Source: Pseudomonas sp. KBW05
Lineage (GTDB): Bacteria; Pseudomonadota; Gammaproteobacteria; Pseudomonadales; Pseudomonadaceae
Length of the DNA: 64,000 nt
Assembly: GCF_003852405.1 (NCBI RefSeq)
Contig: NZ_QAJM01000009.1
Coordinates: 1 to 64,000, forward strand
Reading direction: 5' to 3'
Shown here: positions 8,809 through 36,948 of the stretch, piece by piece
How positions within the stretch are numbered: the first letter of the stretch is position 1
Layout of the letters: each line of letters starts with the position of its first letter
Notes under the pieces: model-generated
Told to the model about the DNA's origin: nothing
Databases searched by the model: none
What the model saw: the letters and a program-made list of their open reading frames with translations, nothing else
Program-made: the position numbers and the translations under genes

Positions 8809-8913
8809 TGTGGGAGCGGGCTTGCTCGCGAATGCGGTGGGGCAGATGCAAATTTGCTGACTGACCCACCGCATTCGCGAGCAAGCCCGCTCCCACACAA
8901 GCCCGCTCCCACA
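8809..8913. repeat. REPIN with an extra REP arm
   Basis: Two inverted arms with the same core as the unit at 4114 but a different spacer (GCGGTGGGGCAGATG... / ...TGACCCACCGC), followed by a third partial arm GCCCGCTCCCACA. It lies downstream of the VOC gene and before the small gene read on the opposite strand. Confidence 0.85.
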
Positions 8914-8936
8914 GTTGATCTTCACCGTCTGACGGA

Positions 8937-9080
8937 TCAGGGCTTGAGCGGCCGCTCCTGATCCCGCTCGGAAAGCTCTGTACCGTCATCTGGATGCTTC
9001 CAGGTCTGTGGCTTTTCTTCCTCACGTCGCCGGGGTTGCTCACCCTTTGGCGCTTCCCGTGGTTTCTGTTCGTCAGTCAT
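8937..9080 (-). CDS. Small hydrophilic charged protein, 47 residues
   Basis: A short open frame starting ATG at 9080 with an excellent AGGAGG ribosome site seven bases upstream. It starts MTDEQKPREAPKGEQPRRR and ends SERDQERPLKP. The composition is extremely rich in Glu, Arg, Lys and Pro with no hydrophobic core, so it is probably disordered. The strong ribosome site is the main reason to call it real. No function is recognised. Confidence 0.6.
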   Translation of the reverse strand: MTDEQKPREAPKGEQPRRREEEKPQTWKHPDDGTELSERDQERPLKP

Positions 9081-9278
9081 GTCCACCTCCTGTCCTTAAG
9101 AATGGGTCGCACCTTCAAGCATAGAACAGTGTCGGCATTTTCGACGGGGTCGCCAATTGATAGCCAACGCGCATCAATCCATCCAAATTTGTCACTTATC
9201 ATTTCTAAATGTGTCAGCCACTATTCTAGGTCTTAGGCGAAACAAGCACTTTAAAAAGAACGCTGGAGACACAAAACC

Positions 9279-10583: not shown

Positions 10584-11341
10584 TGAAGCCGCTGCTGAAC
10601 ACCCTGACGGCCCTGGCTCTCGGCGCGTTGGCGCTGACGGCCCAGGCCGAAGAGCTCAAGGTGATGACCTCTGGCGGCTTCACCGCTGCCTATAAACTGC
10701 TGGGCCCGCAATACGCCCAGCAGAGTGGCGACACCCTGAACACCATCCTCGGCCCGTCGATGGGCAAGGCGCCGGAAGCGATTCCCAACCGCCTGGCCCG
10801 TGGCGAACATGCGGACGTGGTGATCATGGTCGGCTATGCCCTCGATGAGTTGATCAAGCAAGGCAAGGTCGACAAGGCCTCCCGCGTGGAACTGGCGGAC
10901 TCGCGCATCGGCCTGGTGGTGAAGGCCGGCGCGGCCAAACCGGCAATCAGCACCGATGCCGAGCTTAAGGCCGTGCTGAGCCAGGCCAAGTCCGTGGCGT
11001 ATTCGGACAGTGCCAGCGGCGTATATGTGGAGAAGGAGTTGTTCCACAAACTCGGCATGCCGGCCAAGGGCAACATGATCGAACGCATCCCGGTGGCCTC
11101 CGTGGTGGCCAAGGGGGACTACGAAGTCGGTCTGCAGCAGGTCGCGGAATTGTTACCGGTGCCGGGGGTGACTTACGTCGGCAAAATCCCGGAAGACGTG
11201 CAGTCCGTGACGCGTTTTGCGGCGGGTATTCCGGTCAACGCCGAACACCCGGCCGAAGCCAAGGCGCTGCTGCAATTCCTCGCCTCGCCCGCGGCGCAAC
11301 CGGTGGTGCAAGCCACCGGCCTGGACTCGGTGTCACGCTGA
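10583..11341 (+). CDS. Periplasmic substrate-binding protein, ModA-like fold
   Basis: About 252 residues from the ATG at 10583, which overlaps the TAA stop of the upstream symporter and follows GGAGG. A Sec signal peptide ([22 protein letters not shown]) is cut around residue 22. The mature protein (ELKVMTSGGFTAAYKLL, DVVIMVGYALDELI) resembles the molybdate-binding ModA-like group of type-2 binding proteins, members of which also bind organic acids. No ABC permease or ATPase is adjacent. It might feed ligand to the symporter or act as a sensor; both are inference. Its last 9 bases overlap the convergent LysR gene. Confidence 0.78.
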   Translation: MKPLLNTLTALALGALALTAQAEELKVMTSGGFTAAYKLLGPQYAQQSGDTLNTILGPSMGKAPEAIPNRLARGEHADVVIMVGYALDELIKQGKVDKASRVELADSRIGLVVKAGAAKPAISTDAELKAVLSQAKSVAYSDSASGVYVEKELFHKLGMPAKGNMIERIPVASVVAKGDYEVGLQQVAELLPVPGVTYVGKIPEDVQSVTRFAAGIPVNAEHPAEAKALLQFLASPAAQPVVQATGLDSVSR

Positions 11342-12235
11342 CCGAAACGGCATCTCCCGCACCAACCGCTCCAACTCCAGCGCCGCCGGTGGCAATGTCC
11401 GCCCGCGGCGCTTGATCAAGCCCACGTTGCGCATCACCTGCGGCTCCACCAGCGGCACACTGACCAGAATCGGGTGTTCGTTCGCCGGCATCGCAATCGA
11501 TGGCACCATCGCCACCCCCAGCCCCGCCTCCACCAGCCCGATCATGGTGGTCACGTGGTGCGTCTCGCAGATGCTCGGTTTTTTCACCCGCACGCCACGC
11601 AGCGCCTGGTCCAGCAGGAAACGGTTGCCGGAGGTCTTGTCCACGGTGATGTAGTCGTGCTCGTAGGCTTCGGCCCAAGGCACACTCTCGCGCCCCGCCA
11701 GCGGATGATCGCGGCGACAGGCCAGCACGTAGCGCTCCTGCAACAGCAACTCGAACTCCACTTCGTCGGCCAGGCTGCCGCTGAAACTCACGCCGAAATC
11801 CGCCTCGCCACTTTCCACCGCATTGCACACCTCACCGGCACTGGCATCCAGCACCCGCAGGCGAATCTTCGGATACAGCTTGTGGAATTCGGAAATCACG
11901 TGGGGCATGAAGTAGTACGCGGTAGACGGCACACAGGCGATGGTGACATTACCCATGCGCGTGGAGGCCACGTTGCTGATGCCCATCAGCGCGATGTCGA
12001 GGTCGTCGAGCATGCGCTCCACCTGCGGCAGGAACGCGCGACCGACCATGGTCAGGCTGACTCGCCGCGTGGTGCGCTCGAACAGCTTGACGTCGAGGGC
12101 GGACTCCAGCTTTTCGATGCGCCGGCTGAGGGCTGGCTGCGAAATACGGATGGCCTCGGCGGCGCCGCGAAAACTGCCTTTGTCTACCACAGCGCGGAAG
12201 GCTTGGAGGTCGTTGAGATCGAAGTTGATGATCAC
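11333..12235 (-). CDS. LysR-family transcriptional regulator
   Basis: A 300-residue LysR protein. The helix-turn-helix run FRGAAEAIRISQPALSRRIEKLE (in two parts: FRGAAEAIRIS / QPALSRRIEKLE) is at about residues 22-44. The effector domain follows, with the usual GLGVAMVPS near 243. It is convergent with and overlaps the binding-protein gene by 9 bp and probably regulates that transport pair; the beta-propeller gene reads away on its other side. Confidence 0.87.
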   Translation of the reverse strand: MIINFDLNDLQAFRAVVDKGSFRGAAEAIRISQPALSRRIEKLESALDVKLFERTTRRVSLTMVGRAFLPQVERMLDDLDIALMGISNVASTRMGNVTIACVPSTAYYFMPHVISEFHKLYPKIRLRVLDASAGEVCNAVESGEADFGVSFSGSLADEVEFELLLQERYVLACRRDHPLAGRESVPWAEAYEHDYITVDKTSGNRFLLDQALRGVRVKKPSICETHHVTTMIGLVEAGLGVAMVPSIAMPANEHPILVSVPLVEPQVMRNVGLIKRRGRTLPPAALELERLVREMPFRSA

Positions 12236-12364
12236 GAGGATGGGCCAGTGAGGTCGATTTGCCGAACATTATCGTACGAATGTAACGGCAACAGGCCTAC
12301 ACGCATTTAAAAAACACCCTCACCTGCGTAGTCTGCATGCCGAATCCAATCGACTGAGCGATCA

Positions 12365-13234
12365 ATGACCACCCCATCCAATAACAAAAACCCATTGCGT
12401 TTCTGGCGCCTCGGAGCCTGCCTCGTAGGCGCTCCGGTGATCGCCGCCCTCGGTTTCTTCGCCTGGCAAAGCTTCTACCCCGTAAGTGCCGCGACCGGTT
12501 GGAGCGTGCAAGTGGTACACCGCGACGTGGCGAAAGCGGCATCGCTGATGCCGTTGTCGGACGGTTCGCTGGTGGTCAGCCAGGAACTCGACAAGGGCAA
12601 GGGCAGCATCGTGCGCATCCACTCCGACGGCTCGCGTGAGGTGGTGGTGGCCAACCTGTCAAAACCCGACGGCATAGTGCCAACCCGTGGCGGTTGGGTG
12701 TTCAGCCAGGAGTCAGACGGCTTACCCGTCAGCTTCTACAAGGACGGCGTGGTTACCGAACTGTTCAAGGGTGACAGCGTGCAAGGCTTGTGGGTTGAGG
12801 GCGACGACCTCTACGCCATCGAGGATCGCAAGCCGGCCGGTCGCCTGCTGCGTTACCGCTGGAGCGACCAGTCGCTGACCGTGTTGCGCGACCAGGTGCA
12901 GGAAGGTGAAGCCATCGTGCGCTGCACGGACGGGCGCCTGCTCTACAACGAGAAGCAAAAGGGCGTGGTGCGCGAGCTGACCGCCGACGGCAGCGACCCG
13001 GTGGTGCTGAGCAATTTGAACCAGCCGACCTTCCTGATGTGCGACGAGCGCGGGCTGTGGATCAATGAGGATGCCACGCATCGGGCGCGGTTGTTGCTGA
13101 TCGATAAGCAGGGGCGCCAGCAGACCATTTTGTCGTTCCTCAAAGCCCCCCAGTCGATTGTGCCGAGCGGGCGCGGGACTTATTTGGTGGCTGAGGGTGG
13201 GAGAAGTCGGGTGTTGGAGCTGACGCCGGAGTAG
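12365..13234 (+). CDS. Membrane-anchored beta-propeller (SMP-30/NHL-like) protein
   Basis: A 289-residue protein with one N-terminal membrane helix (about residues 17-35, ACLVGAPVIAALGFFAW) and an outer domain built of repeated blades such as DGSLVVSQE, GGWVFSQE, DDLYAIED, DGRLLYNE and RGLWINED. This fits a six-bladed propeller related to SMP-30/gluconolactonase or NHL proteins. It should sit in the periplasm tethered to the inner membrane. No catalytic residues can be assigned with confidence and no neighbour suggests a pathway. Confidence 0.72.
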   Translation: MTTPSNNKNPLRFWRLGACLVGAPVIAALGFFAWQSFYPVSAATGWSVQVVHRDVAKAASLMPLSDGSLVVSQELDKGKGSIVRIHSDGSREVVVANLSKPDGIVPTRGGWVFSQESDGLPVSFYKDGVVTELFKGDSVQGLWVEGDDLYAIEDRKPAGRLLRYRWSDQSLTVLRDQVQEGEAIVRCTDGRLLYNEKQKGVVRELTADGSDPVVLSNLNQPTFLMCDERGLWINEDATHRARLLLIDKQGRQQTILSFLKAPQSIVPSGRGTYLVAEGGRSRVLELTPE

Positions 13235-13328
13235 CGTCTATCCCGACGCAGATCACGGCGGCTGACATTGCGACGCTGGCGAACGACAATATTGAGAACG
13301 CTAAAACATTCCCCCAAGTCGGTTTGAA

Positions 13329-13631
13329 ATGGAAAAAATTCTAATCGCCTGCGTAATGATCGCCTGCCTGGCCGGCTGTGTCGGTGCGCAACTTTCACTG
13401 CCAGATGAAAAACACGAGACTGTTTCAGATCAGCGGGATTCAACCGCGAAAGAAGCTGAACGCGAATGGTGTGGGATGACGCTTTGGGTTGGGTTGCCAC
13501 TGCCGCTGAAACTTCCCGTCTGCCAGTCACGTCCTCCTCCGTCATACCTTTATGCATGCGGTCCTTTCATGTTCCTGGGACCGATCATGCATAGCTACGA
13601 GGGGAATGCCTTATGTGGGAAGTTTCTTTAA
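13329..13631 (+). CDS. Small predicted lipoprotein
   Basis: A 100-residue protein with a type-II signal peptide and lipobox LAGC (Cys17). The mature part has the run LPLPLKLPVCQSR and several further cysteines, reminiscent of YceK-type small lipoproteins. The ribosome site is weak. Probably an outer-membrane lipoprotein of unknown role. Confidence 0.62.
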   Translation: MEKILIACVMIACLAGCVGAQLSLPDEKHETVSDQRDSTAKEAEREWCGMTLWVGLPLPLKLPVCQSRPPPSYLYACGPFMFLGPIMHSYEGNALCGKFL

Positions 13632-13695
13632 TCGCCACTGGCGTACAAGAAAACTAACGGTTGCACGGGGCAAGCCCTATGCCAGACGCTTCGCA

Positions 13696-13721
13696 TCGAT
13701 AGCACTGATGATTACTATCGA
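13696..13721. promoter_or_regulatory. Inverted repeat and -10-like element upstream of an efflux gene
   Basis: TCGATAG-N12-CTATCGA forms a 7-bp inverted repeat about 100 bp before the MFS gene. A TATAAT hexamer follows at 13756-13761. Position suggests an operator for that gene, but no regulator is adjacent. Confidence 0.35.
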
Positions 13722-13823
13722 AACGAGCGCCTGCTCGATATTCGCAACCGGTTCATATAATCCTCGCCTGACTCCCTCCCCTCGCCTGGCTTCAGGCGAC
13801 ATGCACCTTGGAACCCCAACACC

Positions 13824-15050
13824 ATGCCAAGCGCCAGCCAGGCCTCCAGTGGCCTTCCCGAACATAATCAGCAAAGCGTCAAACAGCAGTGGCTGGCCAT
13901 TCTCTCGGTAGCCGTGGGCGCCTTCGCCCTGGTCACCAGTGAATTTCTACCGGTAGGCGTGCTCAACGACGTCGCCAGCGACCTCGGCATCAGCGCCGGC
14001 CACGCCGGCCTGATGGTGACCCTGCCCGGCATCATGGCCGCCCTCGCCGCGCCTTTGCTGTCGGTGTTTATTGGCACCATGGACCGTCGCTACCTGCTGA
14101 TCAGCCTGACGCTGATCATGATCATCGCCAACTCGGTCGTGGCCTTCGCCAGCGACTTCAACCTGCTGCTGTTCGGACGCGTGCTGCTGGGCATCAGTAT
14201 CGGCGGTTTCTGGGCCACGGCGATCGCCCTCAGCGGCCGCCTGGCGCCCAAGGGCGTGGGTGTCGCGAAGGCCACCTCGATCATCATGATGGGCGTGACC
14301 CTGGCCACCGTACTGGGCGTGCCCGTCGGCACCTGGCTGAGCGGCCTGATGGGTTGGCGCATGACCTTCCTGGTCACCGCGCTGGTGGGTGTGCCGGTGC
14401 TGCTGGCGCAGGTGTTCCTGCTGCCCCGGCTCACCCCGGAAAAGGCCATTCGCGTCAGTGACCTGCCCGCGTTGTTTATCAACCCACAAGCGCGGGTAGG
14501 ATTGATCGCGGTGTTGCTGATCGGTCTGGCGCACTTTGCCGCCTACACCTACGTTGCGCCGTTCTTCAAACAGAGCGCCGGCTTCGATGGCCCAACGATT
14601 GGCTCGCTGCTGCTGCTCTACGGCGTGGCCGGGGTATTGGGCAATATCTTTGCAGGTTTCGCCGCCAACCGCAGCGTGCGCAACACCTTGCTGCTGGTGG
14701 CCCTGATGATCGGCACCAGCACCGCCCTGTTCCCCCACTTCGCCACCGGCATGACCGGCGCCGCGATGCTGATCGCGCTCTGGGGCTTTGCCTTCGGCGC
14801 CTTCCCGGCGTGCGCCAGCATCTGGATGTTTGTCGTCGCGCCCAAGGACGTCGAACGCGGCATGCCGCTGTTCGTCGCCCTGTTCCAGGTGATTATTGCC
14901 TTGGGCTCGTTCTTTGGCGGGCGCATCGTCGACCAGATGGGCAGCGCGGTGCTGCTGAGCCTGGCCACGATGTTGGTGGGCGCGGGCTTTGTGACGGTGC
15001 TGGTGTTGGGGCGCAAGGTGAGTAATAGCTTGGTGGCTCAGCCGGCCTGA
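13824..15050 (+). CDS. Major facilitator efflux protein, DHA1 family (AraJ/NepI-like)
   Basis: A 408-residue protein with about 12 membrane helices after a hydrophilic N-terminus of about 23 residues. The runs FALVTSEFLPVGVLNDVASDLG and GRVLLGISIGGFWATAIALSGRL (here cut as GRVLLGISIGGFW and ATAIALSGRL) match the AraJ/NepI/SotB branch of drug and metabolite exporters. Substrates in this branch include purine ribonucleosides and arabinose. A strong terminator follows directly. Confidence 0.83.
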   Translation: MPSASQASSGLPEHNQQSVKQQWLAILSVAVGAFALVTSEFLPVGVLNDVASDLGISAGHAGLMVTLPGIMAALAAPLLSVFIGTMDRRYLLISLTLIMIIANSVVAFASDFNLLLFGRVLLGISIGGFWATAIALSGRLAPKGVGVAKATSIIMMGVTLATVLGVPVGTWLSGLMGWRMTFLVTALVGVPVLLAQVFLLPRLTPEKAIRVSDLPALFINPQARVGLIAVLLIGLAHFAAYTYVAPFFKQSAGFDGPTIGSLLLLYGVAGVLGNIFAGFAANRSVRNTLLLVALMIGTSTALFPHFATGMTGAAMLIALWGFAFGAFPACASIWMFVVAPKDVERGMPLFVALFQVIIALGSFFGGRIVDQMGSAVLLSLATMLVGAGFVTVLVLGRKVSNSLVAQPA

Positions 15051-15067
15051 GCAGAACGTTATCGTCC

Positions 15068-15105
15068 AAAAAAGCCTGCTGAGCATTGAGCCCAGCAGGC
15101 TTTTT
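15068..15105 (+). terminator. Rho-independent terminator
   Basis: AAGCCTGCTG ... CAGCAGGCTTTTT hairpin with A and T tracts on both sides, 17 bp after the MFS stop. Confidence 0.9.
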
Positions 15106-15253
15106 CAGTTTTAGGCCGGAGCATCATTTCGGCAATCGCAGTTTCGGCAAATCATTCGTAATGAGCCCTCACACAATGGAACGTGTAAGCCCAAGCGCCT
15201 GAACTAGCCTTGAAAAGGTCGCCGACGTGGCGACAGGCTGATAAGGAGCTTAT

Positions 15254-15382
15254 ATGCCAACGAAGTATCGTGATGCGGTCACCGGGGAGTACGTGACAGA
15301 GGGTGAAGCAAAGAAAAGACCGAGGGAGACGGTAAGGGAGACGGATAAAAAACCTTCGCCAAAGCCGAAGGGTAAGAAGTAG
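15254..15382 (+). CDS. Small basic protein, 42 residues
   Basis: A short frame opening MPTKYRDAVTGEYVTEGEAK with an AAGGAG ribosome site seven bases upstream. The C-terminal half is Lys/Arg/Pro-rich (KKPSPKPKGKK). Short proteins with the YRDAVTGEYVT opening are, to my memory, common as uncharacterised multicopy proteins in proteobacteria. Likely real; function unknown. Confidence 0.6.
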   Translation: MPTKYRDAVTGEYVTEGEAKKRPRETVRETDKKPSPKPKGKK

Positions 15383-15448
15383 GTTCGCGCGGGAGACGTG
15401 GACGCCATATGTCGAATCAGACTTGAAACCCTGACACTCTTGATCCAA

Positions 15449-15470
15449 TGTAATGACAAACGTCATTACA
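15449..15470. promoter_or_regulatory. Operator palindrome of the toxin-antitoxin operon
   Basis: A perfect 9-bp inverted repeat TGTAATGAC-AAAC-GTCATTACA ends 13 bp before the antitoxin start, where RelB/DinJ-type antitoxins bind to repress their own operon. Confidence 0.7.
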
Positions 15471-15483
15471 TGAGGAGTCTTCC

Positions 15484-15723
15484 ATGGCATCCATAAACAT
15501 TCGAATCGACGACGACCTGAAAGCTCGCGCCTATCTGGAGCTTGAGAGACTCGGCGTCACGCCTTCCGAACTGATGCGCCAGGCCCTGCAATACGTGGCA
15601 GATCGCGGTCAATTGCCTTTCAAGCCGGTCCTCATGACTGAAGACGATGAAGCCTTGATGGCCACCGTGCGGGAACGTTTGGCATCCCCCCAACGAGTAA
15701 GGGTTTCGATAGATGACCTATAG
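15484..15723 (+). CDS. RelB/DinJ-family antitoxin
   Basis: A 79-residue protein with the ribbon-helix-helix opening ASINIRIDDDLKARAYLELE and GVTPSELMRQALQYV (about residues 2-38), followed by an acidic C-terminal tail that would wrap the toxin. The start follows a GAGGAGTCTTCC site. Its stop overlaps the toxin start by 11 bases. It should bind the palindrome just upstream and neutralise the toxin. Confidence 0.9.
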   Translation: MASINIRIDDDLKARAYLELERLGVTPSELMRQALQYVADRGQLPFKPVLMTEDDEALMATVRERLASPQRVRVSIDDL

Positions 15724-16000
15724 CCTTGATTTTGATGCGCGCGCATTGAAGGAATGGCAGAAACTCGGCAACACCATCCGTCAGCAGTTGAAGAAGAAGT
15801 TAGTGGAGATACTGAACAATCCACGGATTGAAGCCAATCGCCTGCATGGGCTGCCGGACTGCTACAAGATCAAGCTGCGCAGCAGCGGTTACCGGTTGGT
15901 CTATCAAGTCATTGATCAGGAAATCACGGTGGTAGTGGTGGCCGTTGATAAGCGCGAGCGTGATCAGGCTTATCAAAAGGCGGCAGAGCGTTTGAGCTAG
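15713..16000 (+). CDS. RelE/StbE-family toxin (mRNA interferase)
   Basis: A 95-residue RelE-fold protein. It begins MTYSLDFDARALKEWQKLG, and has the core NRLHGLPDCYKIKLRSSGYRLVYQV (here cut: NRLHGLPDCYKIK / LRSSGYRLVYQV) and the end VVVAVDKRERDQAYQKA. Conserved basic residues (K53-R64 zone, R83-R85) fit ribosome-dependent mRNA cleavage. The cistron overlap with the antitoxin gives coupled expression. A terminator and tRNA-Ser lie next to it. Confidence 0.9.
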   Translation: MTYSLDFDARALKEWQKLGNTIRQQLKKKLVEILNNPRIEANRLHGLPDCYKIKLRSSGYRLVYQVIDQEITVVVVAVDKRERDQAYQKAAERLS

Positions 16001-16038
16001 TCATGCAATGGGTGGCCAATTACAAAAATCACCAAAAC

Positions 16039-16077
16039 AAAAAAGCCCCGTAGCTTATTCAGCTACGGGGCTTTTTC
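16039..16077. terminator. Bidirectional rho-independent terminator
   Basis: AAAAAAGCCCCGTAGC ... GCTACGGGGCTTTTT hairpin with A and T tracts, between the toxin gene and the oppositely read tRNA-Ser. Confidence 0.92.
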
Positions 16078-16084
16078 TATGTAA

Positions 16085-16174
16085 TGGCGGAGAGATAGGG
16101 ATTCGAACCCTAGGTACCGGTGAAGGTACAACGGATTTCGAATCCGTCCCATTCGGCCACTCTGGCATCTCTCC
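16085..16174 (-). tRNA. tRNA-Ser (anticodon CGA)
   Basis: On the - strand a 90-nt tRNA begins GGAGAGATGCC and ends in an encoded CCA. It has a long variable arm as expected for serine, a GGTTCGAATCC T-loop, and an anticodon loop TTCGAAA giving CGA, which reads UCG. It lies just upstream of purC on the same strand and is followed by a strong terminator. Confidence 0.95.
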
Positions 16175-28389: not shown

Positions 28390-29997
28390 ATGAGCCAACA
28401 GTTTCAACACGATGTTCTAGTGATCGGTAGCGGCGCGGCCGGCTTGAGCCTGGCGCTGACCCTCCCCGGCCACCTGCGAATTGCCGTACTGAGCAAAGGC
28501 AACCTGGCCAACGGCTCGACATTCTGGGCCCAGGGCGGTGTCGCCGCCGTGCTGGACGACACCGACACGGTGCAATCCCACGTCGAAGACACCCTTAACG
28601 CCGGCGGCGGCCTGTGCGACGAAGACGCAGTACGCTTCACCGTCGAGCATAGCCGCGAGGCCATCCAATGGCTGATCGACCAGGGCGTGCCGTTCACCCG
28701 CGATGAACACGCGGGCAGCGACGACGGCGGTTTCGAGTTCCACCTGACCCGCGAGGGCGGCCACAGCCACCGTCGCATCATCCACGCCGCCGACGCCACC
28801 GGCGCCGCGATCTTCACGACCCTGCTCGAACAAGCGCGCCAACGCCCCAACATCGAACTGCTGGAGCAACGCGTCGCCGTCGACCTGATCACCGAAAAAC
28901 GCCTGGGCCTGGACGGCGAGCGCTGCCTCGGCGCCTACGTGCTCAACCGCGCCAGCGGCGAAGTCGATACCTACGGCGCACGTTTCACCATCCTGGCCTC
29001 AGGCGGCGCCGCCAAGGTCTACCTCTATACCAGCAACCCCGACGGCGCCTGCGGCGACGGCATCGCCATGGCCTGGCGCTCGGGCTGCCGGGTGGCCAAT
29101 CTGGAATTCAATCAGTTCCACCCAACCTGCCTGTATCACCCGCAGGCCAAGAGCTTCCTGATCACCGAAGCCCTGCGCGGCGAAGGCGCCCACCTGAAAC
29201 TGCCGAACGGCGAGCGTTTCATGCAACGCTTCGATCCCCGCGCCGAACTCGCGCCACGGGACATCGTCGCCCGCGCCATCGACCATGAAATGAAGCGCCT
29301 GGGCATCGACTGCGTCTACCTGGACATCAGCCACAAGCCCGAAGCCTTCATCAAGACGCACTTCCCAACCGTCTACGAGCGTTGCCTGACGTTCAACATC
29401 GACATCACCAAAGGCCCGATCCCCGTGGTCCCGGCCGCGCACTACACCTGCGGCGGCGTGATGGTCGACCAACACGGCCGTACCGACGTGCCCGGCCTGT
29501 ATGCCATTGGTGAAACCAGCTTCACCGGCCTGCACGGTGCCAACCGCATGGCCAGCAATTCGCTGCTCGAATGCTTCGTCTACGCCCGCTCGGCGGCGGC
29601 GGACATCCTTGAACAACTGCCGCGCATCGCCGTGCCAGACGCCCTGCCCCGCTGGGATGCAAGCCAGGTCACCGATTCGGACGAAGACGTGATCATCGCC
29701 CACAACTGGGACGAGTTGCGCCGCTTCATGTGGGACTACGTGGGGATTGTGCGTACCAACAAGCGCCTGCAACGCGCGCAACACCGCGTGCGGCTGCTGC
29801 TGGATGAGATCGACGAGTTCTACAGCAACTACCGAGTAAGCAGAGACCTGATTGAACTGAGGAACCTTGCCCAGGTAGCGGAACTGATGATCAGGTCTGC
29901 CATGGAACGTAAGGAATCTCGGGGCCTGCACTACACGCTGGACTATCCAGAGATGCTGCCAGAGGCGAAGGATACGATCCTTACACCGACCTTTTGA
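28390..29997 (+). CDS. nadB: L-aspartate oxidase, chimeric: host body with element-supplied C-terminus
   Basis: A 535-residue flavoprotein that oxidises aspartate to iminoaspartate for NAD synthesis. The FAD-binding opening [19 protein letters not shown], active-site region THPTC-like [13 protein letters not shown], and GASFTG-like [18 protein letters not shown] are intact. The final 55 codons (29832-29997) come from an inserted element: the protein is nearly unchanged but the codons differ, and the host's own 3' end is now at 36341-36533. The enzyme should still work. It is divergent from algU as in other pseudomonads. Confidence 0.96.
29814..29831. other. attL core repeat
   Basis: CGAGTTCTACAGCAACTA, identical to attR at 36341. 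It encodes EFYSNY of NadB. Host nadB sequence is to the left, and the element's own copy of the nadB 3' end is to the right. Confidence 0.9.
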
Positions 29998-30038
29998 GGC
30001 ACGTTAGGAGCCCATAGCGTAGCACCATAGGACCCCGA

Positions 30039-30069
30039 TTTGTAACAGCTTTGGCTCACATTTGTCCCA
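30039..30069. promoter_or_regulatory. Putative recombinase arm-type sites, left end
   Basis: TTTGTAACAG (30039) and TTTGTCCCA (30061) both occur again, in the same order, at the right end (36253 and 36264). A shared TTTGTNNCA unit near both ends is what integrase arm-binding sites look like. A 7-bp inverted repeat GGACCCC/GGGGTCC encloses this pair (30030-30081). Confidence 0.55.
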
Positions 30070-30218
30070 ACGCTGGGGTCCCTATCGCCTGCCCGCAAGG
30101 GTCCTTATCGTGCGCCTGAGCGAGCGTGCGAGGGCCTACGGGGGTAAGCGCGCCCAGAGAGTATTAAAGGTGATCGCTCAGCTTTTTCTCTCAAATTCTA
30201 AAGGGACCTCAAGGAGTT

Positions 30219-30273
30219 CCTGTGTGAAATCTGAATAACCTGCGAGCCAATGGCCCACGAGATTTCACACAGG
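30219..30273. repeat. Perfect 14-bp inverted repeat downstream of the left operon
   Basis: CCTGTGTGAAATCT at 30219-30232 and its exact complement at 30260-30273 enclose a 27-base loop. It lies right after the last leftward gene of the element. It could end or process the phage-polymerase transcript, or be a packaging or protein site; it lacks the T-run of a normal terminator. The rest of the stretch from nadB's stop to this point holds no gene. Confidence 0.6.
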
Positions 30274-30277
30274 CCCC

Positions 30278-30505
30278 CTACATGGCTGTCATTACATCGC
30301 TTAACAGATCGTGGGTAAGCTCAATGAGACCCTCAGGCACGGCGACCCCGCTGACTATGGCAATCATGGCGACTACCTTCCAGAAGCTGGGAGATTTAAC
30401 GATAGCCTTGAGGACAGCTAACCGAACATCTTTCGCATGGTCATAGGGCCCTCCTTGAATCAGCCAATTAACGTAATGAAATAACGTATCACTGAAAGAA
30501 CCCAA
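30278..30505 (-). CDS. Small membrane protein, holin-like size
   Basis: A 75-residue frame with one strong hydrophobic segment (FWKVVAMIAIVSGVAVPEGLI, about 41-61) flanked by charged residues. The TTG start at 30505 has GAGGAG only two bases away, so the true start is uncertain; a better site AAGGAGGGCCCT further in leads to a different, very short frame. It is last in the leftward operon after the capsid-like gene, where a holin or membrane effector could sit. Function not established. Confidence 0.5.
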   Translation of the reverse strand: MGSFSDTLFHYVNWLIQGGPYDHAKDVRLAVLKAIVKSPSFWKVVAMIAIVSGVAVPEGLIELTHDLLSDVMTAM

Positions 30506-30539
30506 GACTCCTCATAGGGAGCCTCAGGACTTCATCCAT

Positions 30540-31553
30540 CTATTCGCCCAGCGTCACACGAGTGACCATTGGGAAATCTACCAGCTCAACTTGGAGCTTC
30601 TCGGCTGGGTCGGCTGGGTTTGCCAGCTTGAGTTGCACCTTGGCCTGAGCCATTACATCAGCCACACCAATGATCTCTACGTCCCATGCTGCTGCATTGG
30701 CGTTACGGGTCGCATGGATCTGCCACACATCGCCATCACCATCTTGGCGGAAGCTCAAAGAGGCCATGTCTTTAGGAAGCATAAAGATGCCGAGGTCTTC
30801 ACCAGAATAGAACTGCGTACCACAACCCAATAGCTCCTCTACATCCGACAAACCAGCTCGTTGAGCAGCACGCTCAAGACCAGCGACTTCCTTTGCAGGA
30901 ATCAGCAACACAAAGTCAGACAGCGAAGTGCCAACGGCTTGGTTGATGTTCATGGTCAGGCCGTCAATGATGTCCTCTGCGCGTTCGCGTGGGTTCTTCG
31001 ATAAGCCAGTCAGTGCCTTGGTCTCGGTGGATGCAGCACTGGTCAGGATCTTCGCAATGGTCGCCCCACAAGACAGCTCAAAGTCTTTCAACATCTTCTC
31101 GGCCATCTGACCCATGCCATTGGCAGTGAAACCAGCAATCATGTGGTGGTCGAAGAACGTTTGACGGAAAGAGAACAGAGCGGCGTGCGGGGTCGCCTCA
31201 CAGAACAGGAAGTCACCAGCGGCTGCCTCACCCTTCTCAAAGGTCGAGTCATCGTAGATGGATTTACGGGGATCGAACTCAACGCTACGGTCTTGCATCA
31301 GCATAATCTGCTGTGTGGTTGGCTCAGTGCCCTTAGGGCGGAACTCACAGGGGATTGCGTCCTCTGCCGCCGCTTCCCAGTCACCGCCGTTAAAGTAGTC
31401 GTCAAGGCCCTCTGTAAGGATCTCAACGAACGTCTCAGCGCCAGTTGCGCCGTTGTCCTTTACCTCAGCCGAGGAGTTAAAACGGATGATGCCGCCTTGC
31501 TCAGTGATAGCGGTAGACCAGTTGGTGGGCTTGATGTATTCGTTAGTTTTCAT
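30540..31553 (-). CDS. Putative phage capsid-like protein
   Basis: A 337-residue protein with an AAGGAG ribosome site. I do not recognise a close family. Length, absence of signals or catalytic motifs, and the pattern of a central helix-rich part (about 195-230, LIPAKEVAGLERAAQRAGL) followed by strand-rich segments (GEDLGIFMLPKDM, WDVEIIGVADV) resemble HK97-fold major capsid proteins. The neighbouring order, small basic helical protein then this, mirrors scaffold-capsid pairs of podoviruses. If correct, the element makes its own shell or alters the helper's. An unrelated structural role is possible. Confidence 0.45.
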   Translation of the reverse strand: MKTNEYIKPTNWSTAITEQGGIIRFNSSAEVKDNGATGAETFVEILTEGLDDYFNGGDWEAAAEDAIPCEFRPKGTEPTTQQIMLMQDRSVEFDPRKSIYDDSTFEKGEAAAGDFLFCEATPHAALFSFRQTFFDHHMIAGFTANGMGQMAEKMLKDFELSCGATIAKILTSAASTETKALTGLSKNPRERAEDIIDGLTMNINQAVGTSLSDFVLLIPAKEVAGLERAAQRAGLSDVEELLGCGTQFYSGEDLGIFMLPKDMASLSFRQDGDGDVWQIHATRNANAAAWDVEIIGVADVMAQAKVQLKLANPADPAEKLQVELVDFPMVTRVTLGE

Positions 31554-31609
31554 GTGGGATCTCCTTGAGTTGTTCGAAGTGATGTTCTTTGTGGCCCGCT
31601 TAGCTGTTG

Positions 31610-32002
31610 TCAGTTACGACGAGCTGCGCGAATGGCCGCACCGTGTGCCCGGATGTCTGCTGCTCGTTTCTCTTTGGCTTCACGAGCCCGAGCCACTTCA
31701 AGGCGTGTAGGTGCCTGATAGGAAGCGCATCGGTCTGCGTGGAACTGAGCGTCACGGAGCTGAGCTGCTCGAAGGTCTTCACCTGCTTTGATCTCTTGGC
31801 GGGCCAGCGAGGTCTGCTCAGGGAATGCTGAGGTACTGAGACCAGCTTCGATGTACTGGCGCACGATGGCCGTGATCGAACTGTGATTCTTACCAGCAGC
31901 AGCGATAAGACCTGCGAGCATTACGCCCTCGGCATAAGCCTTGGTCACGGGTTGGCCTTGAACGGTCAAGGAGTTGTCACTGAGTTGGATGTCGAGCTTC
32001 AT
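31610..32002 (-). CDS. Small protein in scaffold position
   Basis: About 130 residues from the ATG at 32002, preceded by AAAGGAG; the longer upstream frame has no ribosome site. The N-terminal half is compact (MKLDIQLSDNSLTVQGQ), and the C-terminal third is a highly charged, Ala/Arg/Lys-rich predicted helix (RLEVARAREAKEKRAADIRA) ending RRN. The gene is first after promoter P3 and directly before the capsid-like gene. A scaffold or size-determining role is inferred from position and composition only. Confidence 0.6.
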   Translation of the reverse strand: MKLDIQLSDNSLTVQGQPVTKAYAEGVMLAGLIAAAGKNHSSITAIVRQYIEAGLSTSAFPEQTSLARQEIKAGEDLRAAQLRDAQFHADRCASYQAPTRLEVARAREAKEKRAADIRAHGAAIRAARRN

Positions 32003-32283
32003 ATTGGGGTTCTCCTTTGAGAGACCCTTAAGCCAAACCTTGCCGCCATGATCGCGTGACCAATGGGGAAAGGAGACCCGCACGGGATCAACAAGGTTTG
32101 CTTAAAGGTATTGGATTGAAGGTGGTTTCACAGTCCTGTGGGGTTAACTTGGCGGGGACTGTAGGAGCGCCTCTGTGCTGAATGGCGGACAGCGAGGAGG
32201 TTCCGGTGTGGTGCATAGATTGCCCACTACTGACGCTTAGGGCGCATCGTGGGACCTTGAGGAGACCATGGGTGATTGATTCC

Positions 32284-32306
32284 CGTGGCCGTAGTGAGGT
32301 TTTTTA
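32284..32306 (-). promoter_or_regulatory. Phage-type promoter P3 (T7/gh-1-like)
   Basis: Read leftwards: TAAAAAACCTCACTACGG then CCACG. It matches P1 and P2 at 18 of 23 positions and, from memory, the gh-1 phage consensus TAAAAACCCTCACTRTGG. It lies about 280 bp before the scaffold-position gene and should drive that operon. Confidence 0.8.
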
Positions 32307-32315
32307 CGACAGTTC

Positions 32316-32633
32316 TCAGGCCAGCATTATCGGCTGACTGCTCATCGGAATGGACAAGTCACAGCGAACAAGCGTCTTCAAACTGAGACCGTCTTCAAGA
32401 GCTTCCTTGAGCGCTTCCATACATCGCTGGTTTGTTATGAGGCCAATGTAGGGAAGCGTCACCGAGAGGTCGTAAACGGTGCCCAATTCGGGGTCACGCG
32501 AACGGCCTGGAGCATTCACCTTAGAGACCAAGGCGCGGATCGTAATAAGCGATGTCCGGCGTGGCTTGGTGAACACCCTGTTAATCAAGGCGAGCTCAGC
32601 GGTTGTCGGAATGGTTTTCTTAAAGTTGCTCAT
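32316..32633 (-). CDS. Unknown protein, 105 residues
   Basis: A 105-residue, mildly basic protein starting MSNFKKTIPTTAELALINR, whose ATG overlaps the stop of the KilA-N gene (ATGA), so it is translationally coupled. The C-terminal part (ALKEALEDGLSLKTLVRCDL) is helical. No motif is recognised. It ends 10 bp before promoter P3, separating an upstream unit (KilA-N plus this) from the downstream capsid-like unit. Confidence 0.7.
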   Translation of the reverse strand: MSNFKKTIPTTAELALINRVFTKPRRTSLITIRALVSKVNAPGRSRDPELGTVYDLSVTLPYIGLITNQRCMEALKEALEDGLSLKTLVRCDLSIPMSSQPIMLA

Positions 32634-33163
32634 TTAGCGAATCCTCTTAGGCCGTCTCTGGCTGCAAGGGCGGCTGCTTGAGCCTCTGTAAGGTTGCCTT
32701 TAGCGATAGCTGAGCGTAGGCCCTGTACGGTGTTACGGTGCCCCAGAGAGCTCCATTGGCACTTATTATTGAATGTCATGCGCTTGAGGATGGATGCACT
32801 GTGATCGTTTCCCAAAGAGGCCATCTTGTCAGCAACGATCAAAGCTACTTCTGGTAGCTCAAGGATCGCCTCGAAGGCGTCATAGACAAGATCTTTGAAT
32901 TCATCCGAGACCCAGCCCGCATATTCAAGGGTTGCGCGTTTGGTCGCCCATGAGCCTGCACCATTGGAGCTGTGCAAATTTTGCATAGCTTCCATTCGTT
33001 TAGCCTGCTTGGTCCGCCACTGCGCAGGTCCGTTCTTTACTGGTAACTTTAAGGTTCGCCAGATATCAGTTAGGTCCCACTGCCCTGCATTATTGGCCTT
33101 GAATGCTTGACCTTCTATAATGATGACGTGCCCAGCGTGCTTATGTTTGATGTCAGTGATCAT
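32630..33163 (-). CDS. KilA-N domain protein
   Basis: About 177 residues starting MITDIKHKHAG, with AAGAGGAA upstream. I prefer this start because the longer frame would begin upstream of promoter P2. The KilA-N core is visible: QWDLTDIWRTL, then GSWATKRATLEYAGWVS and DEFKDLVYDAFEAI (about 28-115). KilA-N is a DNA-binding domain of phage regulators and antirepressors. A C-terminal region after about 125 (NNKCQWSSLGHRNTVQGLR) may be a second binding part. Likely an early regulator or anti-helper protein; the role is inferred. Confidence 0.82.
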   Translation of the reverse strand: MITDIKHKHAGHVIIIEGQAFKANNAGQWDLTDIWRTLKLPVKNGPAQWRTKQAKRMEAMQNLHSSNGAGSWATKRATLEYAGWVSDEFKDLVYDAFEAILELPEVALIVADKMASLGNDHSASILKRMTFNNKCQWSSLGHRNTVQGLRSAIAKGNLTEAQAAALAARDGLRGFAK

Positions 33164-33310
33164 TTGTCTATTCCTCTTGTTTGCTTCCTCAGGTTCGCTC
33201 CCACAGCCCAGCGCAGAGACCCGACAAAGGTTCTGGACGGTGGCATGAAGAAGCAAACAGGAAGACTCTGCGATTATCTGTGTGATGCCCAGCGATGGGC
33301 GTGGTGTGTC

Positions 33311-33333
33311 TGTAGCCTTAGTGAGGGTTTTTA
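33311..33333 (-). promoter_or_regulatory. Phage-type promoter P2 (T7/gh-1-like)
   Basis: Read leftwards: TAAAAACCCTCACTAAGG then CTACA, differing from P1 at one base of 23. It lies about 150 bp before the KilA-N start. Confidence 0.88.
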
Positions 33334-33363
33334 CGACCACTTGCTTCACATGGCCCGAGAGAA

Positions 33364-33839
33364 CCTCTTAAAGTAAACCAAGCACCACTGGTGTAAACGA
33401 TCACTTGCAGCCCTGCTTAATCTTACTCTCGGCAAGCAGGGGTAATTATTGCCGCAAGACAAATCCCTTCCAAGAGAAACCTATAAGTCCTTTCTTAAAG
33501 ACAAAAGAATAGATTTATATAAAGATAATTATTAGATAGTTCTCAATGAGTAATCTTTAAGATCTTTAAGTTAAGGTCCCCGTGAACATTGAGCAATACA
33601 CGGTGGCCCCAATCCCGTGCAAGGCTTCTCAGCGATGCCCTAAAAGGCACCGACTTACGATCAGCAATATCAATGTTCGCTCCTCCCTACTGGAGCCAGA
33701 CGCTTAGTCTGCTTACCGGGGACGGTTGAGCGTTGGCGTGTCACCCTGTGGGTGATCGCTCTTGGCACTCTGTAGTCTCAGGTCAAATGGTAGGAATCTG
33801 AATGTACAGGCAGGATTTATTTCTGTGTGTCTGCCTACC
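33364..33839. other. Gene-free leader between promoters P1 and P2
   Basis: No supported frame on either strand. It contains an AT-rich block (about 33485-33565) and a small hairpin CACCC-TGT-GGGTG (about 33742-33755), and would form the long untranslated 5' part of a transcript from P1. It could hold host promoters, a replication or packaging site, or a noncoding RNA. Confidence 0.55.
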
Positions 33840-33862
33840 TGTACCCTTAGTGAGGGTTTTTA
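33840..33862 (-). promoter_or_regulatory. Phage-type promoter P1 (T7/gh-1-like)
   Basis: Read leftwards: TAAAAACCCTCACTAAGG then GTACA. The core AACCCTCACTAA is the T3-type recognition sequence, and the spacing matches gh-1-type promoters. It is the rightmost of three leftward copies and is divergent from the small gene at 33969. Confidence 0.88.
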
Positions 33863-33968
33863 AATAGTTCTTGACAAGTGACAAGAAGAAATATTTTAGA
33901 TATGACAACTTTCATGAAATCAGATGTGGCACAATGACATCTTTTGGCAACCTAACCAAGGAGACTCA

Positions 33969-34163
33969 ATGCCTTACACACTCCTCATCCTCAAACTGAT
34001 GGGTGCCCAATTGGTAATCAACTTCGTAGCAACGCTAATCACCTCAGGCATGCGACCGTCAATCAATGTGGCACGGCGCAAAATCATGCAGGCTCTATGG
34101 GCAATCTCTGGGTTTGCATTCATTGGAGCTGTCGTGTGGGACGTTTTCAAGATGTTCAAATAA
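33969..34163 (+). CDS. Small two-helix membrane protein
   Basis: A 64-residue protein starting MPYTLLILKLMGAQLVIN with an AAGGAG site; a longer frame start at 33924 is less likely. Two hydrophobic segments (about 4-22 and 43-60) flank a basic loop with SINVARRKIMQ. It is the only rightward gene in the element. A perfect host-type -35 (TTGACA, 33871) lies about 95 bp upstream, though its -10 is poor, so it may be expressed in the lysogen. Unknown function; exclusion or defence is a guess. Confidence 0.62.
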   Translation: MPYTLLILKLMGAQLVINFVATLITSGMRPSINVARRKIMQALWAISGFAFIGAVVWDVFKMFK

Positions 34164-34534
34164 TCCCCATTGCGATTGGGTTTGTGGACTCACCTGCGCT
34201 GTAGGGGCCAGTCTTGCGAATGGTCTGTAGGACTTCCTCTGTGACCCACTTTCGGAACGGCTCAGAGGCTGGTGCGCGTCCCCCGTAGGAGCATCTGATA
34301 GGCCGCAGCCTCAGTAAAAACTCAGCTCCTTGACTGCACGTTAGGGAGCTTTGGTAAGGTATCTACATTTGGTATAGACCCTAATGTGATAGCTCCAGAT
34401 GTCCCTGAGTACCCGGCGTGACGGCTGACCTGCTGACTTGGTTTCTTCAAGCCAGCGGCGCGGGCAACCTGAACAGCCACAAACAGCAGTTCATGCTCAG
34501 GGTGGCCGACAAGAACGTCCAGTTCGACACCCAT
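34156..34534 (-). pseudogene. Bro-N domain (antirepressor-like) gene, broken
   Basis: The N-terminal part reads MGVELDVLVGHPEHELLF and VARAAGLKKPSQQVSRHAG, then hits an in-frame TGA. Directly after it the same frame continues VFTEAAAYQMLLRG, and after one extra G in a GGGGG run the next frame gives GRAPASEPFRKWVTEEVLQT and IRKTGPYS. Together these are the classic Bro-N fold order. One stop and one frameshift make it a pseudogene unless there is a sequencing error. Its last bases overlap the small gene on the + strand. Confidence 0.78.
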
Positions 34535-34544
34535 AAAGTTGCGC

Positions 34545-34838
34545 TTAAAAATCCTGCCTAACTTTATAAGTAATTGTCCTCGGGGTTGTTTTAGGAATGT
34601 GTTCCATCAGCACCACACATTCACCAACAACATATTTTATTGCTTTGACAGCCTCCCACCCCTGACAGGCCGAGCTATTTATTTTGAATGTTCCGAGCTT
34701 GTGCACTCCCCCTTTAGCACCGACATGCAACTTGCTATTTAACTTAAGGTGATAACTGGTCACTTCAACAATTAACGACTTGTCATCGACAAGTATTAGT
34801 TCAAGCGTAGGCTTAGACTTAACGGGATTAGTTTCCAT
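34545..34838 (-). CDS. Unknown small protein downstream of the integrase
   Basis: About 97 residues from the ATG at 34838 (METNPVKSKPTLELILVDDK); a TTG at 34853 overlapping the integrase stop is the alternative. The protein is rich in strand-like segments with lysines and no recognisable motif. It probably shares a transcript with the integrase. Confidence 0.55.
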   Translation of the reverse strand: METNPVKSKPTLELILVDDKSLIVEVTSYHLKLNSKLHVGAKGGVHKLGTFKINSSACQGWEAVKAIKYVVGECVVLMEHIPKTTPRTITYKVRQDF

Positions 34839-34849
34839 ACAAGTATCTC

Positions 34850-36298
34850 TCAATTGTTGTCTGTCAGCTTAAAGGATTTGCTCAACGCCTCAGCCATCCG
34901 TTCTACCTGAACGGCGCTGCCAGATCCATACAGATCATAACTAATCGACCCCGACGAATGCCCCAAGATTGCCTCAGCGGTCCCCACAGGCACCTCAGCG
35001 GCCTTCAAGGCACCGGCCAGCGAGTGACGTAACGAGTGGAAGGTCTGGGTCCGATCAGTGTTCAGGCTCAAGACATCTCGCAACGCCCCATTAAGCACGT
35101 TTGAGAACTGACCAGCGCCTAACGTGAACAGCCGAGAGTCAGAGCTATCGACAAACGCAAGGAACGCTTTTAGGTCAAACCCATAGGCCGCATCGGTCAA
35201 CGGTATGACACGCAGAGCATTCTTGGTCTTGGCTGTCTTGCCATCGTTCCTATTGATATCGATGACCCAAACGCCCCCAACCTGCTTAACGTCCGCCTTG
35301 GTCAACTGCCTGAGTTCTTCAATGCGGGTCCCAGTGATGACCCCAAGGGACAACGCCCAGCGCTGCCATACATCAGCAGATAGGCCGTTAGCGTAGGACA
35401 TAAGCAACTGGACCTGATCCTGAGAGAACGCCTCACGCGAGCTGTCAGCATCCTTGGATAGCTTCAACCCCTTATCGAAGCTCTTGTCGATGTAGCCATT
35501 ATGAACAGCCCAATCCATGACAGTTGATAGCCGGGTGAGTAGCTTGTTCACAGTGGAACCTTTGCGGTCCTCAAGGAGTTTTGCCTTGAGTGCCACCATG
35601 TCAGCCCGAGTGTGCCCTTTAAGGTCGAGCTCTCCCAGAGCAGCGCTAATAGCAGCACAAGACGACTTAACGTCTCGCATAGTGCTGGCCTGTACGTTGT
35701 CCTTTTGCTCCGCCATATAGAGCCCAGAGAGATGCTCGAACGTCAGTGCGTCAGAAGCGTTTACAGATAGGGACAGACAAGGGGCTACAGGCGTGCCACC
35801 AGGGATACCTCTGAGTTCCTCAACGATCCCGATCAGCTTACCCGGCCTGCCCTTCAAACGTTCCTGAGCAGCCTCCAGAATGTCCTCAGCTTTGCTCGCG
35901 GCCCTTTGTTGATCAACGGTCATTGGCCCTTTAGCTGATGCCTCGCGAAGCGATAGACGTAACTCGTCGTAGATTATTTCGTAGGCCACCAGTGAGTCAT
36001 CACCATGAGCCATAGTCAGGCACTCCTCAGCGATGTCTGCCAACCGTTCTCTGAGCTCATCCCACGTCGCCTCTGGGTTATCCAAGTGGAAAGCAGCCAG
36101 CGTCTTGAGGATGTCCTTGGAGATGGTCATAGCAGTAGCCTTGTCTGTGGTCCTGAGCGATAGCGTGTAGAAGCCCTTAGCGGTTCCTTGAGGGCGAAGG
36201 CGAAGGTAATAGCGACCAGACCGGCGATAGTGGTACGGCTTGGCGAGCGCAGTTTGTAACAGGTTTGTCCCACTTTGGGAGCGGCGGTTGACGGTCAT
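34850..36298 (-). CDS. int: Tyrosine recombinase (integrase) of the nadB element
   Basis: A 482-residue phage-type integrase. The N-terminal part (KPYHYRRSGRYYLRLRPQG) is the arm-binding region, a SAM-like core-binding domain covers about 185-270, and the catalytic domain has Arg in TGTRIEELRQL, His-x-x-Arg in FHSLRHSLAG, His in LGHSSGSISYD, and the tyrosine nucleophile in DLYGSG. Its start lies 43 bp from attR and its reading direction is into the element. It should integrate and excise the element at the 18-bp nadB core. Confidence 0.93.
   Translation of the reverse strand: MTVNRRSQSGTNLLQTALAKPYHYRRSGRYYLRLRPQGTAKGFYTLSLRTTDKATAMTISKDILKTLAAFHLDNPEATWDELRERLADIAEECLTMAHGDDSLVAYEIIYDELRLSLREASAKGPMTVDQQRAASKAEDILEAAQERLKGRPGKLIGIVEELRGIPGGTPVAPCLSLSVNASDALTFEHLSGLYMAEQKDNVQASTMRDVKSSCAAISAALGELDLKGHTRADMVALKAKLLEDRKGSTVNKLLTRLSTVMDWAVHNGYIDKSFDKGLKLSKDADSSREAFSQDQVQLLMSYANGLSADVWQRWALSLGVITGTRIEELRQLTKADVKQVGGVWVIDINRNDGKTAKTKNALRVIPLTDAAYGFDLKAFLAFVDSSDSRLFTLGAGQFSNVLNGALRDVLSLNTDRTQTFHSLRHSLAGALKAAEVPVGTAEAILGHSSGSISYDLYGSGSAVQVERMAEALSKSFKLTDNN
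36253..36272. promoter_or_regulatory. Putative recombinase arm-type sites, right end
   Basis: TTTGTAACAG (36253) and TTTGTCCCA (36264) repeat the pair at the left end. They lie inside the first codons of the integrase gene, so integrase binding there could also repress its own gene. Confidence 0.55.
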
Positions 36299-36340
36299 CG
36301 GCTGAAACCCCTGTATCCATTGGGTTTAGCCTCAAAGGGT

Positions 36341-36358
36341 CGAGTTCTACAGCAACTA
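36341..36358. other. attR core repeat
   Basis: Identical to the attL core at 29814. To its right the original host nadB sequence resumes; to its left is the non-coding upstream of the integrase. Confidence 0.9.
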
Positions 36359-36533
36359 TAAAGTCAGCCGCGACCTGATCGAGTTGCGCAACCTGGCCCA
36401 AGTGGCGGAACTGATGATTCGCTCCGCCATGGAACGCAAGGAAAGCCGCGGCCTGCATTACACCCTCGACTACCCCGACCTGCTGCCCGAGGCCCGCGAC
36501 ACTATTCTGGTGCCAACCACCTACGGCGACTGA
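36341..36533 (+). pseudogene. nadB: Displaced host 3' end of nadB
   Basis: Encodes [18 protein letters not shown] onward to the natural end PTTYGD and stop, in host-like codons. Cut off from the rest of nadB by the element and without a start. Its last 32 bases overlap the convergent ygfX gene, which was presumably the arrangement before insertion. Confidence 0.95.
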
Positions 36534-36948
36534 ACTTCAAGCGCACCCGCAGGCGTCGATGCAGATCGGCGGCCTGCGAATCGGCAGGCACACAGATCGA
36601 GCGCACCCACCACTGCCCCGGCACCCGGTAACGCAGCACCACGATCAACGGCAACGCCAGGCTGTCGGGACGCAACTGCACGCCGTGCCAGCCACGTGCG
36701 GCGCTCCACAACTGCCAGCCGCCTTCATCGCGGCGCAGGCCACGAACCGACGAACGGTGGGTCAGCAGCACATGGCGCGGTAAAACCCAGGCAGCATGCG
36801 CCAGGCACACCAGCACGCCGAGGCTTGAGTAAGGCAGGTCGAGGGACAACAGCGCACCCAGCGCGAACAGCTGGGCAAGGAGATACGCCGCCAGCAACAG
36901 CCGTGAGGCCTGCCAGCGGCATTCAAACGTATTACTTGGGCTGGACAC
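36502..36948 (-). CDS. YgfX-family membrane protein (CptA-like)
   Basis: A 148-residue protein with two N-terminal membrane helices (about 14-55) and a basic cytoplasmic domain ending [12 protein letters not shown]. The GTG start overlaps the end of sdhE by 17 bases. YgfX and SdhE form a conserved pair; in E. coli it was described as a toxin-antitoxin (CptAB), although SdhE's main role is flavinylation. Its 3' end overlaps the displaced nadB fragment. Confidence 0.82.

Follow-up and report, generated by a model that had tools for sequence, protein, structure and literature searches.

What is the small element that sits in nadB of Pseudomonas sp. KBW05, and does it live on a T7-like phage, as a preliminary description made from the sequence had proposed? 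The window analyzed here, a stretch of 64,000 nucleotides (contig NZ_QAJM01000009.1, positions 1 to 64,000), carries a 6.5-kb integrated element at 29814-36358, seated in the 3′ end of nadB. The element is very probably a phage satellite of autographiviruses, which would be switched on by the helper's RNA polymerase and packaged by the helper's terminase. Two of the tests proposed with that description, for recurrence of the gene set and for helper genes in the elements, gave the outcomes expected of a satellite. This reading was supported by the recurrence of the gene set, the absence of helper genes from 38 elements, promoter classes that match those of helpers, a copy of the helper concatemer junction, and an Escherichia coli family with K1F-type promoters and junction.

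The element had been described as having clear ends and its own integrase, and both were confirmed. Exact 18-bp attachment (att) cores were located, which lie inside a longer duplication of the nadB 3′ end, 168 bp in length and 77% identical; the nadB reading frame runs into the element-borne tail, and the native tail is displaced to the right end.

28390-29997, plus strand: nadB, the target gene, whole thanks to the 3′ end supplied by the element (open reading frame (ORF) call, repeat, and uninterrupted nadB of relatives)
29814-29831, no strand: left att core, 18 bp (exact repeat)
36341-36358, no strand: right att core, 18 bp, followed by the displaced native nadB end to about 36508

In the empty-site check, 11 of 12 genomes gave a match, and nadB residues 1-533 were uninterrupted beside the right flank in all seven relatives' loci examined (L090-L096). 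Site-specific chromosomal integration with an integrase of its own, a general trait of satellites, was thus found for the element.

A search of 399 Pseudomonas genomes found relatives of the element's capsid-like gene in 31, the window's own included, and 34 regions fetched together with the window made up 35 Pseudomonas loci, of which L042 and L074 are the halves of one P. proteolytica element. With genes outside the window called by a simple custom ORF picker, a conserved order emerged: integrase, variable genes, a c4 or c5 protein, scaffold-position protein and capsid-like protein, often with a KilA-N or pRha gene before or after. This gene set, with promoters in conserved places, recurs in many Pseudomonas genomes, and 18 of the 35 loci lie at nadB. 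End repeats at E < 1e-5 were detected in 22 of 27 sufficiently complete loci, mostly as diverged copies of the gene end. Compared with the P. viridiflava copy, the capsid gene DNA was 98.4% identical, nadB 92.1% and the flank 88.2%; with the P. proteolytica copy, the values were 98.9, 89.3 and 84.7%, respectively. Because the capsid gene DNA is far more alike than nadB and the flanks, the sequence comparison indicates that the core of the element moves between species. Samples of the phylum (398 genomes) and the class (369 genomes) matched only in the window's own genome, with a profile whose power to detect the E. coli branch is unproven, so that wider absence is not proven. Two nadB versions of about 13 kb, twofold larger, carry the same core (L055, oriented 3060-16110; L062, 3080-16040) and several antisense genes with no Pfam or PADLOC match. 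In L052, a transposase gene that carries an rve domain splits the integrase gene (oriented 8620-9732), and L071 has a nadB-like 3′ end of 71% identity (oriented 14875-15159) with no full nadB nearby.

Three promoters of the single-subunit phage RNA polymerase type had been proposed for the window element. All were located, and all face leftward.

33841-33864, minus strand: first T7-class promoter, gh-1-like (motif match)
33312-33335, minus strand: second T7-class promoter, gh-1-like (motif match)
32285-32308, minus strand: third T7-class promoter, gh-1-like (one to two mismatches from consensus)

In the whole 6.5-Mb genome, seven matches to TAAAAACCCTCACTA were found, of which these three were the best (0, 0 and 1 mismatch) and the other four had 2 mismatches each. 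A 30-base query from the window promoter matched 80 phage records, 66 of them of Pseudomonas phages, including an annotated gh-1 promoter. Across 32 elements, AAACCCTCACTA with at most one mismatch occurred at 44 sense and 0 antisense sites, with at least one in 26 of the 32, and at 0 sites in 347 kb of flanks, while shuffled motifs gave a mean of 0.6 matches and a maximum of 13. This count omits the 3 of 35 loci that lack bounds (L042, L054, L068), uses generous bounds set by eye for elements outside nadB, and is inflated by the window and its close relatives because the 12-base motif was derived from the element in the window. When a position-weight scan was applied to 12 of the 35 loci, promoters emerged in two further elements, L061 and L062.

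The promoter classes resemble those of Ghunavirus, Warsawvirus and Pifdecavirus and, in enterobacteria, Kayfunavirus. All 24 nt of the L052 promoter agree with a site of the Ghunavirus Henninger, that of L071 agrees with a Warsawvirus site in 23 of 24 nt, and those of L044, L062 and L063 score like the promoters of the Pifdecavirus phage phiIBB-PF7A (23.7-30.4 of a maximum of 37.7 bits). L071 also shares 200 bp at 97% identity with the Warsawvirus phTUNSv, whose promoter class it carries.

The genes of the window element are listed below, the leftward ones in the order in which they follow one another, and the opposed ORF last.

34850-36298, minus strand: tyrosine integrase, related to the Warsawvirus integrase (PF00589, E 5.4e-16)
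34545-34853, minus strand: 102-aa protein (ORF call)
34159-34546, minus strand: broken Ant (Bro-N) gene fragment, shared with Ghunavirus phages
32630-33349, minus strand: KilA-N-like regulator, 239 aa in the longest ORF, or possibly 177 aa with a start at 33163
32316-32633, minus strand: 105-aa protein, family c4 (family recurrence)
31610-32002, minus strand: 130-aa scaffold-position protein, family c2 (family recurrence, profile comparison)
30540-31553, minus strand: 337-aa capsid-like protein of predicted HK97 fold, family c1 (homologue searches, fold prediction, profile comparison)
30278-30505, minus strand: 75-aa small protein, family c9, probably membrane (ORF and family recurrence)
33924-34163, plus strand: 79-aa membrane-like ORF (ORF call, family scan)

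Could this be what is left of a decayed, integrase-bearing T7-like (Warsawvirus-like) prophage after loss of most of its genes? The element's integrase, Ant fragment, promoters and junction are each similar to autographivirus ones, and integrases are known in some of these phages: the Warsawvirus integrase matched 34 of the 38 elements and Warsawvirus Ant 11, and the Ant fragment in the window shares 77-81% DNA identity with the Ghunavirus copies. However, 26 of 28 phage proteins tested, covering RNA polymerase, replication, portal, scaffold, capsid, tail, internal core, lysis and terminase, matched none of the 38 elements (tblastn, E 1e-3, a search that is weak for the shortest proteins), so the elements are not visibly decayed prophages, and complete-virion genes are lacking as in satellites generally. 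The single-subunit RNA polymerase that marks an autographivirus prophage was likewise found in none of the 38, and the gh-1 enzyme had no match in the window's whole genome, while the same search recovered a control phage's enzyme (E 0). The prophage explanation is also opposed by one compact gene order kept in many species, and by a capsid-like protein that is under purifying selection, without a match in phage records and without a relation to the helper capsid by profile. We consider it extremely unlikely.

The earlier view that the element has neither a phage RNA polymerase gene nor a terminase, portal, tail or lysis enzyme thus held, as no family of the latter four kinds scored above its curated cut-off among the eight window proteins (Pfam, PHROG). 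In the same scans the capsid-like, scaffold-position and small proteins of the window were assigned to no family, and the 79-aa membrane ORF had a sub-threshold holin-family match (15.4 bits against a cut-off of 28.8). The gene proposed as a KilA-N unit stood as a phage regulator (family match at 2.6e-7), but its KilA-N match itself, at 20 bits, lay below the Pfam cut-off of 23.8. The 79-aa plus-strand ORF (region 33873-34163) is preceded by TTGACA and opposed to the helper-type promoters; it is possibly a host-transcribed gene. In the window's Ant gene, similarity to phage Ant runs on in two reading frames, and longer Bro-N genes occur in L053 and L071. No RNA families were found in window positions 29500-36800.

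T7-like phages package their DNA from concatemers, cut at the terminal-repeat border. A model of this junction was built from the border in five Pseudomonas phages only, with about 45 bases on each side and no satellite sequences, and it revealed a copy in the window element that the preliminary description had missed, as it had the broken Ant gene and an AT-rich block described below.

30132-30210, minus strand: copy of the helper concatemer junction, presumed packaging signal (nhmmer E 6.3e-13; oriented 13791-13869)

The copy consists of the left side of the right terminal repeat and the start of the repeat. The model matched 26 of the 35 Pseudomonas loci at E ≤ 0.0022, 23 of them below 1e-9, and all of these copies lie on the sense strand, past the capsid gene and before the element end; the remaining matches, at E 0.47 or worse, were noise-like. 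Nine of the 35 loci showed no clear junction, two of which (L072, L074) are clipped by contig ends while seven scored at noise level.

An enterobacterial branch of the family was opened by a 27%-identical capsid-like protein on an Enterobacter hormaechei plasmid, the sole and distant plasmid match. In E. coli, a DNA match to the Enterobacter capsid gene was present in 309 of 5426 genomes (about 1 in 18 complete genomes), in 302 over most of the gene, and seven loci, taken non-randomly from the match lists, were opened: four lie after tRNA-Gly and three in the dimethyl sulfoxide-reductase gene (ynfE) by ynfD. The capsid groups of the two branches are homologous (hhalign 99.8%, E 6.5e-28), as are the scaffold-position proteins (93.6%, E 2.1e-7). 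The eight enterobacterial loci gave 17 sense and 0 antisense matches to TCACTATAGGG with at most one mismatch, one of which, in L085, is poor. One site, in the Enterobacter locus (L075), agrees in all of 25 nt with the K1F site ahead of the K1F capsid gene, and the enterobacterial promoter query matched 377 phage records, most of them from enterobacterial T7-like phages. The K1F border was found in all eight loci (E 6.7e-8 to 2.6e-4), once in each at that strength and past the capsid gene. That junctions of two helper lineages recur at an identical position of the element in two bacterial orders argues more strongly than any other single observation for packaging by the helper.

In some enterobacterial loci, a second promoter kind, AATAAACCCTCACTATAGGG, lies about 30 bp from the first. 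Such tandem T7-class promoters of two types were seen in L083 (5371-5413), L084 (2611-2653), L086 (744-787) and L088 (3575-3615), and might let one E. coli satellite answer two kinds of helper. Several of the E. coli copies (L082-L088) contain insertion sequences of the IS66, IS21 and IS3 families inside the element.

The E. coli copies also bear on whether the element is instead a phage-triggered defence island, in which the helper polymerase would switch on a capsid-like decoy together with regulators to block the phage, without any travel in particles. A DUF4145 gene adjoining the integrase in L082 (4681-5334) is a homologue of PD-T7-4, an anti-T7 system (E 1.7e-97), a PD-(D/E)XK nuclease and a RecD-like helicase lie upstream of the capsid core in L061 (7147-10121), resembling candidate defence systems, and the promoter wiring would suit a trigger; interference of this kind is compatible with satellite life as well. 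Yet a pure defence island has no need of a concatemer junction or an integrase. A junction persists in 26 of 35 Pseudomonas and all 8 enterobacterial loci, and near-identical cores are found in different species, all of which makes this alternative very unlikely. Similar DUF4145 genes were seen in L083, L084 and L086. In the available part of its discoverers' report, the PD-T7-4 gene often overlaps an integrase gene (PMC9519451), an arrangement that the satellite reading, if true, would explain.

The scaffold-position and capsid-like genes named in the preliminary description recur across the family under purifying selection: the ratio of nonsynonymous to synonymous substitution rates (dN/dS) was 0.06-0.21 in 11 of 12 comparisons of capsid and other genes, the twelfth being saturated. 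An HK97 fold was predicted for the 337-aa capsid-like protein at modest confidence, and some capsid-like proteins of the family carry C-terminal Big_2 domains. A profile search of solved structures with this protein gave one match, at E 1.3, taken as chance, and no match was found in 50,697 phage records. Derivation of the satellite capsid from the helper capsid (gp10) was unsupported, as profile comparison detected no relation between the two.

How such an element might work can be outlined as follows. Within nadB it would remain silent until infection by a T7-like phage, whose newly made single-subunit RNA polymerase would transcribe the satellite operons. Replication, with helper replication proteins, would perhaps be primed at the first promoter and an AT-rich block.

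33515-33574, no strand: AT-rich block, 18% GC, 285 bp downstream of the first promoter

From its composition and position, this block is a possible promoter-primed replication origin. Of 25 elements, 14 have their most AT-rich block 250-370 bp past a promoter, where 1.8 were expected, a spacing that is only suggestive because the distance was picked after a first listing and the set includes close relatives. The integrase would excise the element, concatemers would form, and the helper terminase would recognise the junction and package the satellite DNA. The shell would use the satellite's HK97-fold protein, fitted with the helper portal and tail, and helper lysis would free the particles.

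The least certain step of this model is the type of shell, an own small head or the helper's. Alternatively, the satellite may move as multimers in full-size helper heads, as PICMI elements do, with the HK97-fold protein serving interference or head remodelling. The 6.5-kb unit is far under the 40-kb T7-like genome, and a capsid unrelated in sequence to gp10 might not fit the helper portal. The junction would also in principle be enough for T7 packaging of foreign DNA, going by the title of Chung and Hinkle (1990), who reportedly found that a T7 origin and a concatemer junction make foreign DNA packageable. A conserved pair of capsid and scaffold-position genes under selection, with Big_2 C-termini in some, resembles a shell gene set, and we regard transfer as multimers as unlikely, though a serious contender. 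The fullest version of the satellite reading, for which the chances fall slightly short of even, is that of a widespread Pseudomonas and enterobacterial family with two copied helper signals, promoters that the helper polymerase alone would read and a concatemer junction for its terminase, whose class covaries with the helper genus, tandem promoters for two helpers, an own smaller HK97 shell fitted with helper portal and tail, and replication primed by helper transcription at the promoter and AT-rich block.

Several observations weigh against the satellite reading. The junction scores of L046, L050, L063, L064, L065, L066 and L070 were at noise level (0.03 or worse), and L064 also has no good promoter. 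The fold model of the capsid-like protein had a predicted local distance difference test score (pLDDT) of 56.6 and low template-modelling (TM) scores. No free-virion copy was found, the matches in the viral collection sitting on contigs of 18-76 kb; among the first five of these (L077-L081) sense promoter sites were present only in L081, and L077 and L078 had none in the roughly 2 kb upstream of the capsid gene. Finally, induction, replication, packaging, particle form and transfer are all inferred from sequence.

T7 is among the best-studied viruses, and a natural satellite of T7 or its relatives would probably be new. Neither such a satellite nor one with autographivirus promoters or junction was found in the literature searched, in which preprints and subscription journals were thinly covered, so that an earlier description may exist. 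If the satellite reading is true, the helper polymerase is the inducer and the helper junction the packaging tag, a simple and legible control logic from which the helper range could be read in the sequence. The family occurs in common E. coli, with its class of model-phage helpers at hand, and could thus be tested quickly.

Among known systems, PLE of Vibrio cholerae is a satellite of the virulent phage ICP1, has its own integrase and remodels the ICP1 coat. The present element would likewise be tied to a virulent phage and has its own integrase, and differs in its autographivirus promoters and junction, which PLE is not known to have. P4 core genes such as alpha, psu and sid were not named for any of the eight window proteins by the general Pfam and PHROG scans. 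With Warsawvirus and Ghunavirus the element shares promoters, concatemer junction and Ant, and with Warsawvirus also the integrase, but these are complete phages of about 40 kb with RNA polymerase, portal, terminase and tail, and their capsid is not detectably related. Artificial T7-transducible plasmids differ in being built, without integrase or capsid gene. Further satellite groups named in PMC11389934 are the marine VEIMEs, the Tycheposons and the soil satellites.

The cfPICIs and the PICMIs come closest, in different respects. For the former, a fuller packaging module with terminase and portal, together with temperate helpers, is characteristic. In our family, T7-like terminase and portal were unmatched in the 38 elements and no such family was seen in the window's eight proteins, in scans that did not apply cfPICI models. 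The own capsid that gives these capsid-forming PICIs their name (PMC10803314 and PMC11389934, in the parts available) may have its counterpart here in the product of the capsid-like gene. PICMIs, according to the available part of PMC10803314, are Vibrionaceae satellites of virulent helpers that sit by fis, have no capsid genes and are packaged as full-size concatemers. They resemble the present family, as far as that source goes, as very small integrated satellites of virulent phages whose particles come from the helper, which for our family is judged from sequence. In contrast, the Pseudomonas and enterobacterial family has helper-polymerase promoters, a T7-type junction and a capsid-like gene of predicted HK97 fold, and occupies nadB and other sites in Pseudomonas and tRNA-Gly and ynfE in E. 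coli rather than a site next to fis in Vibrionaceae. The nearest known group is PICMI in size and helper life style and cfPICI in having a capsid gene, and the family fits neither.

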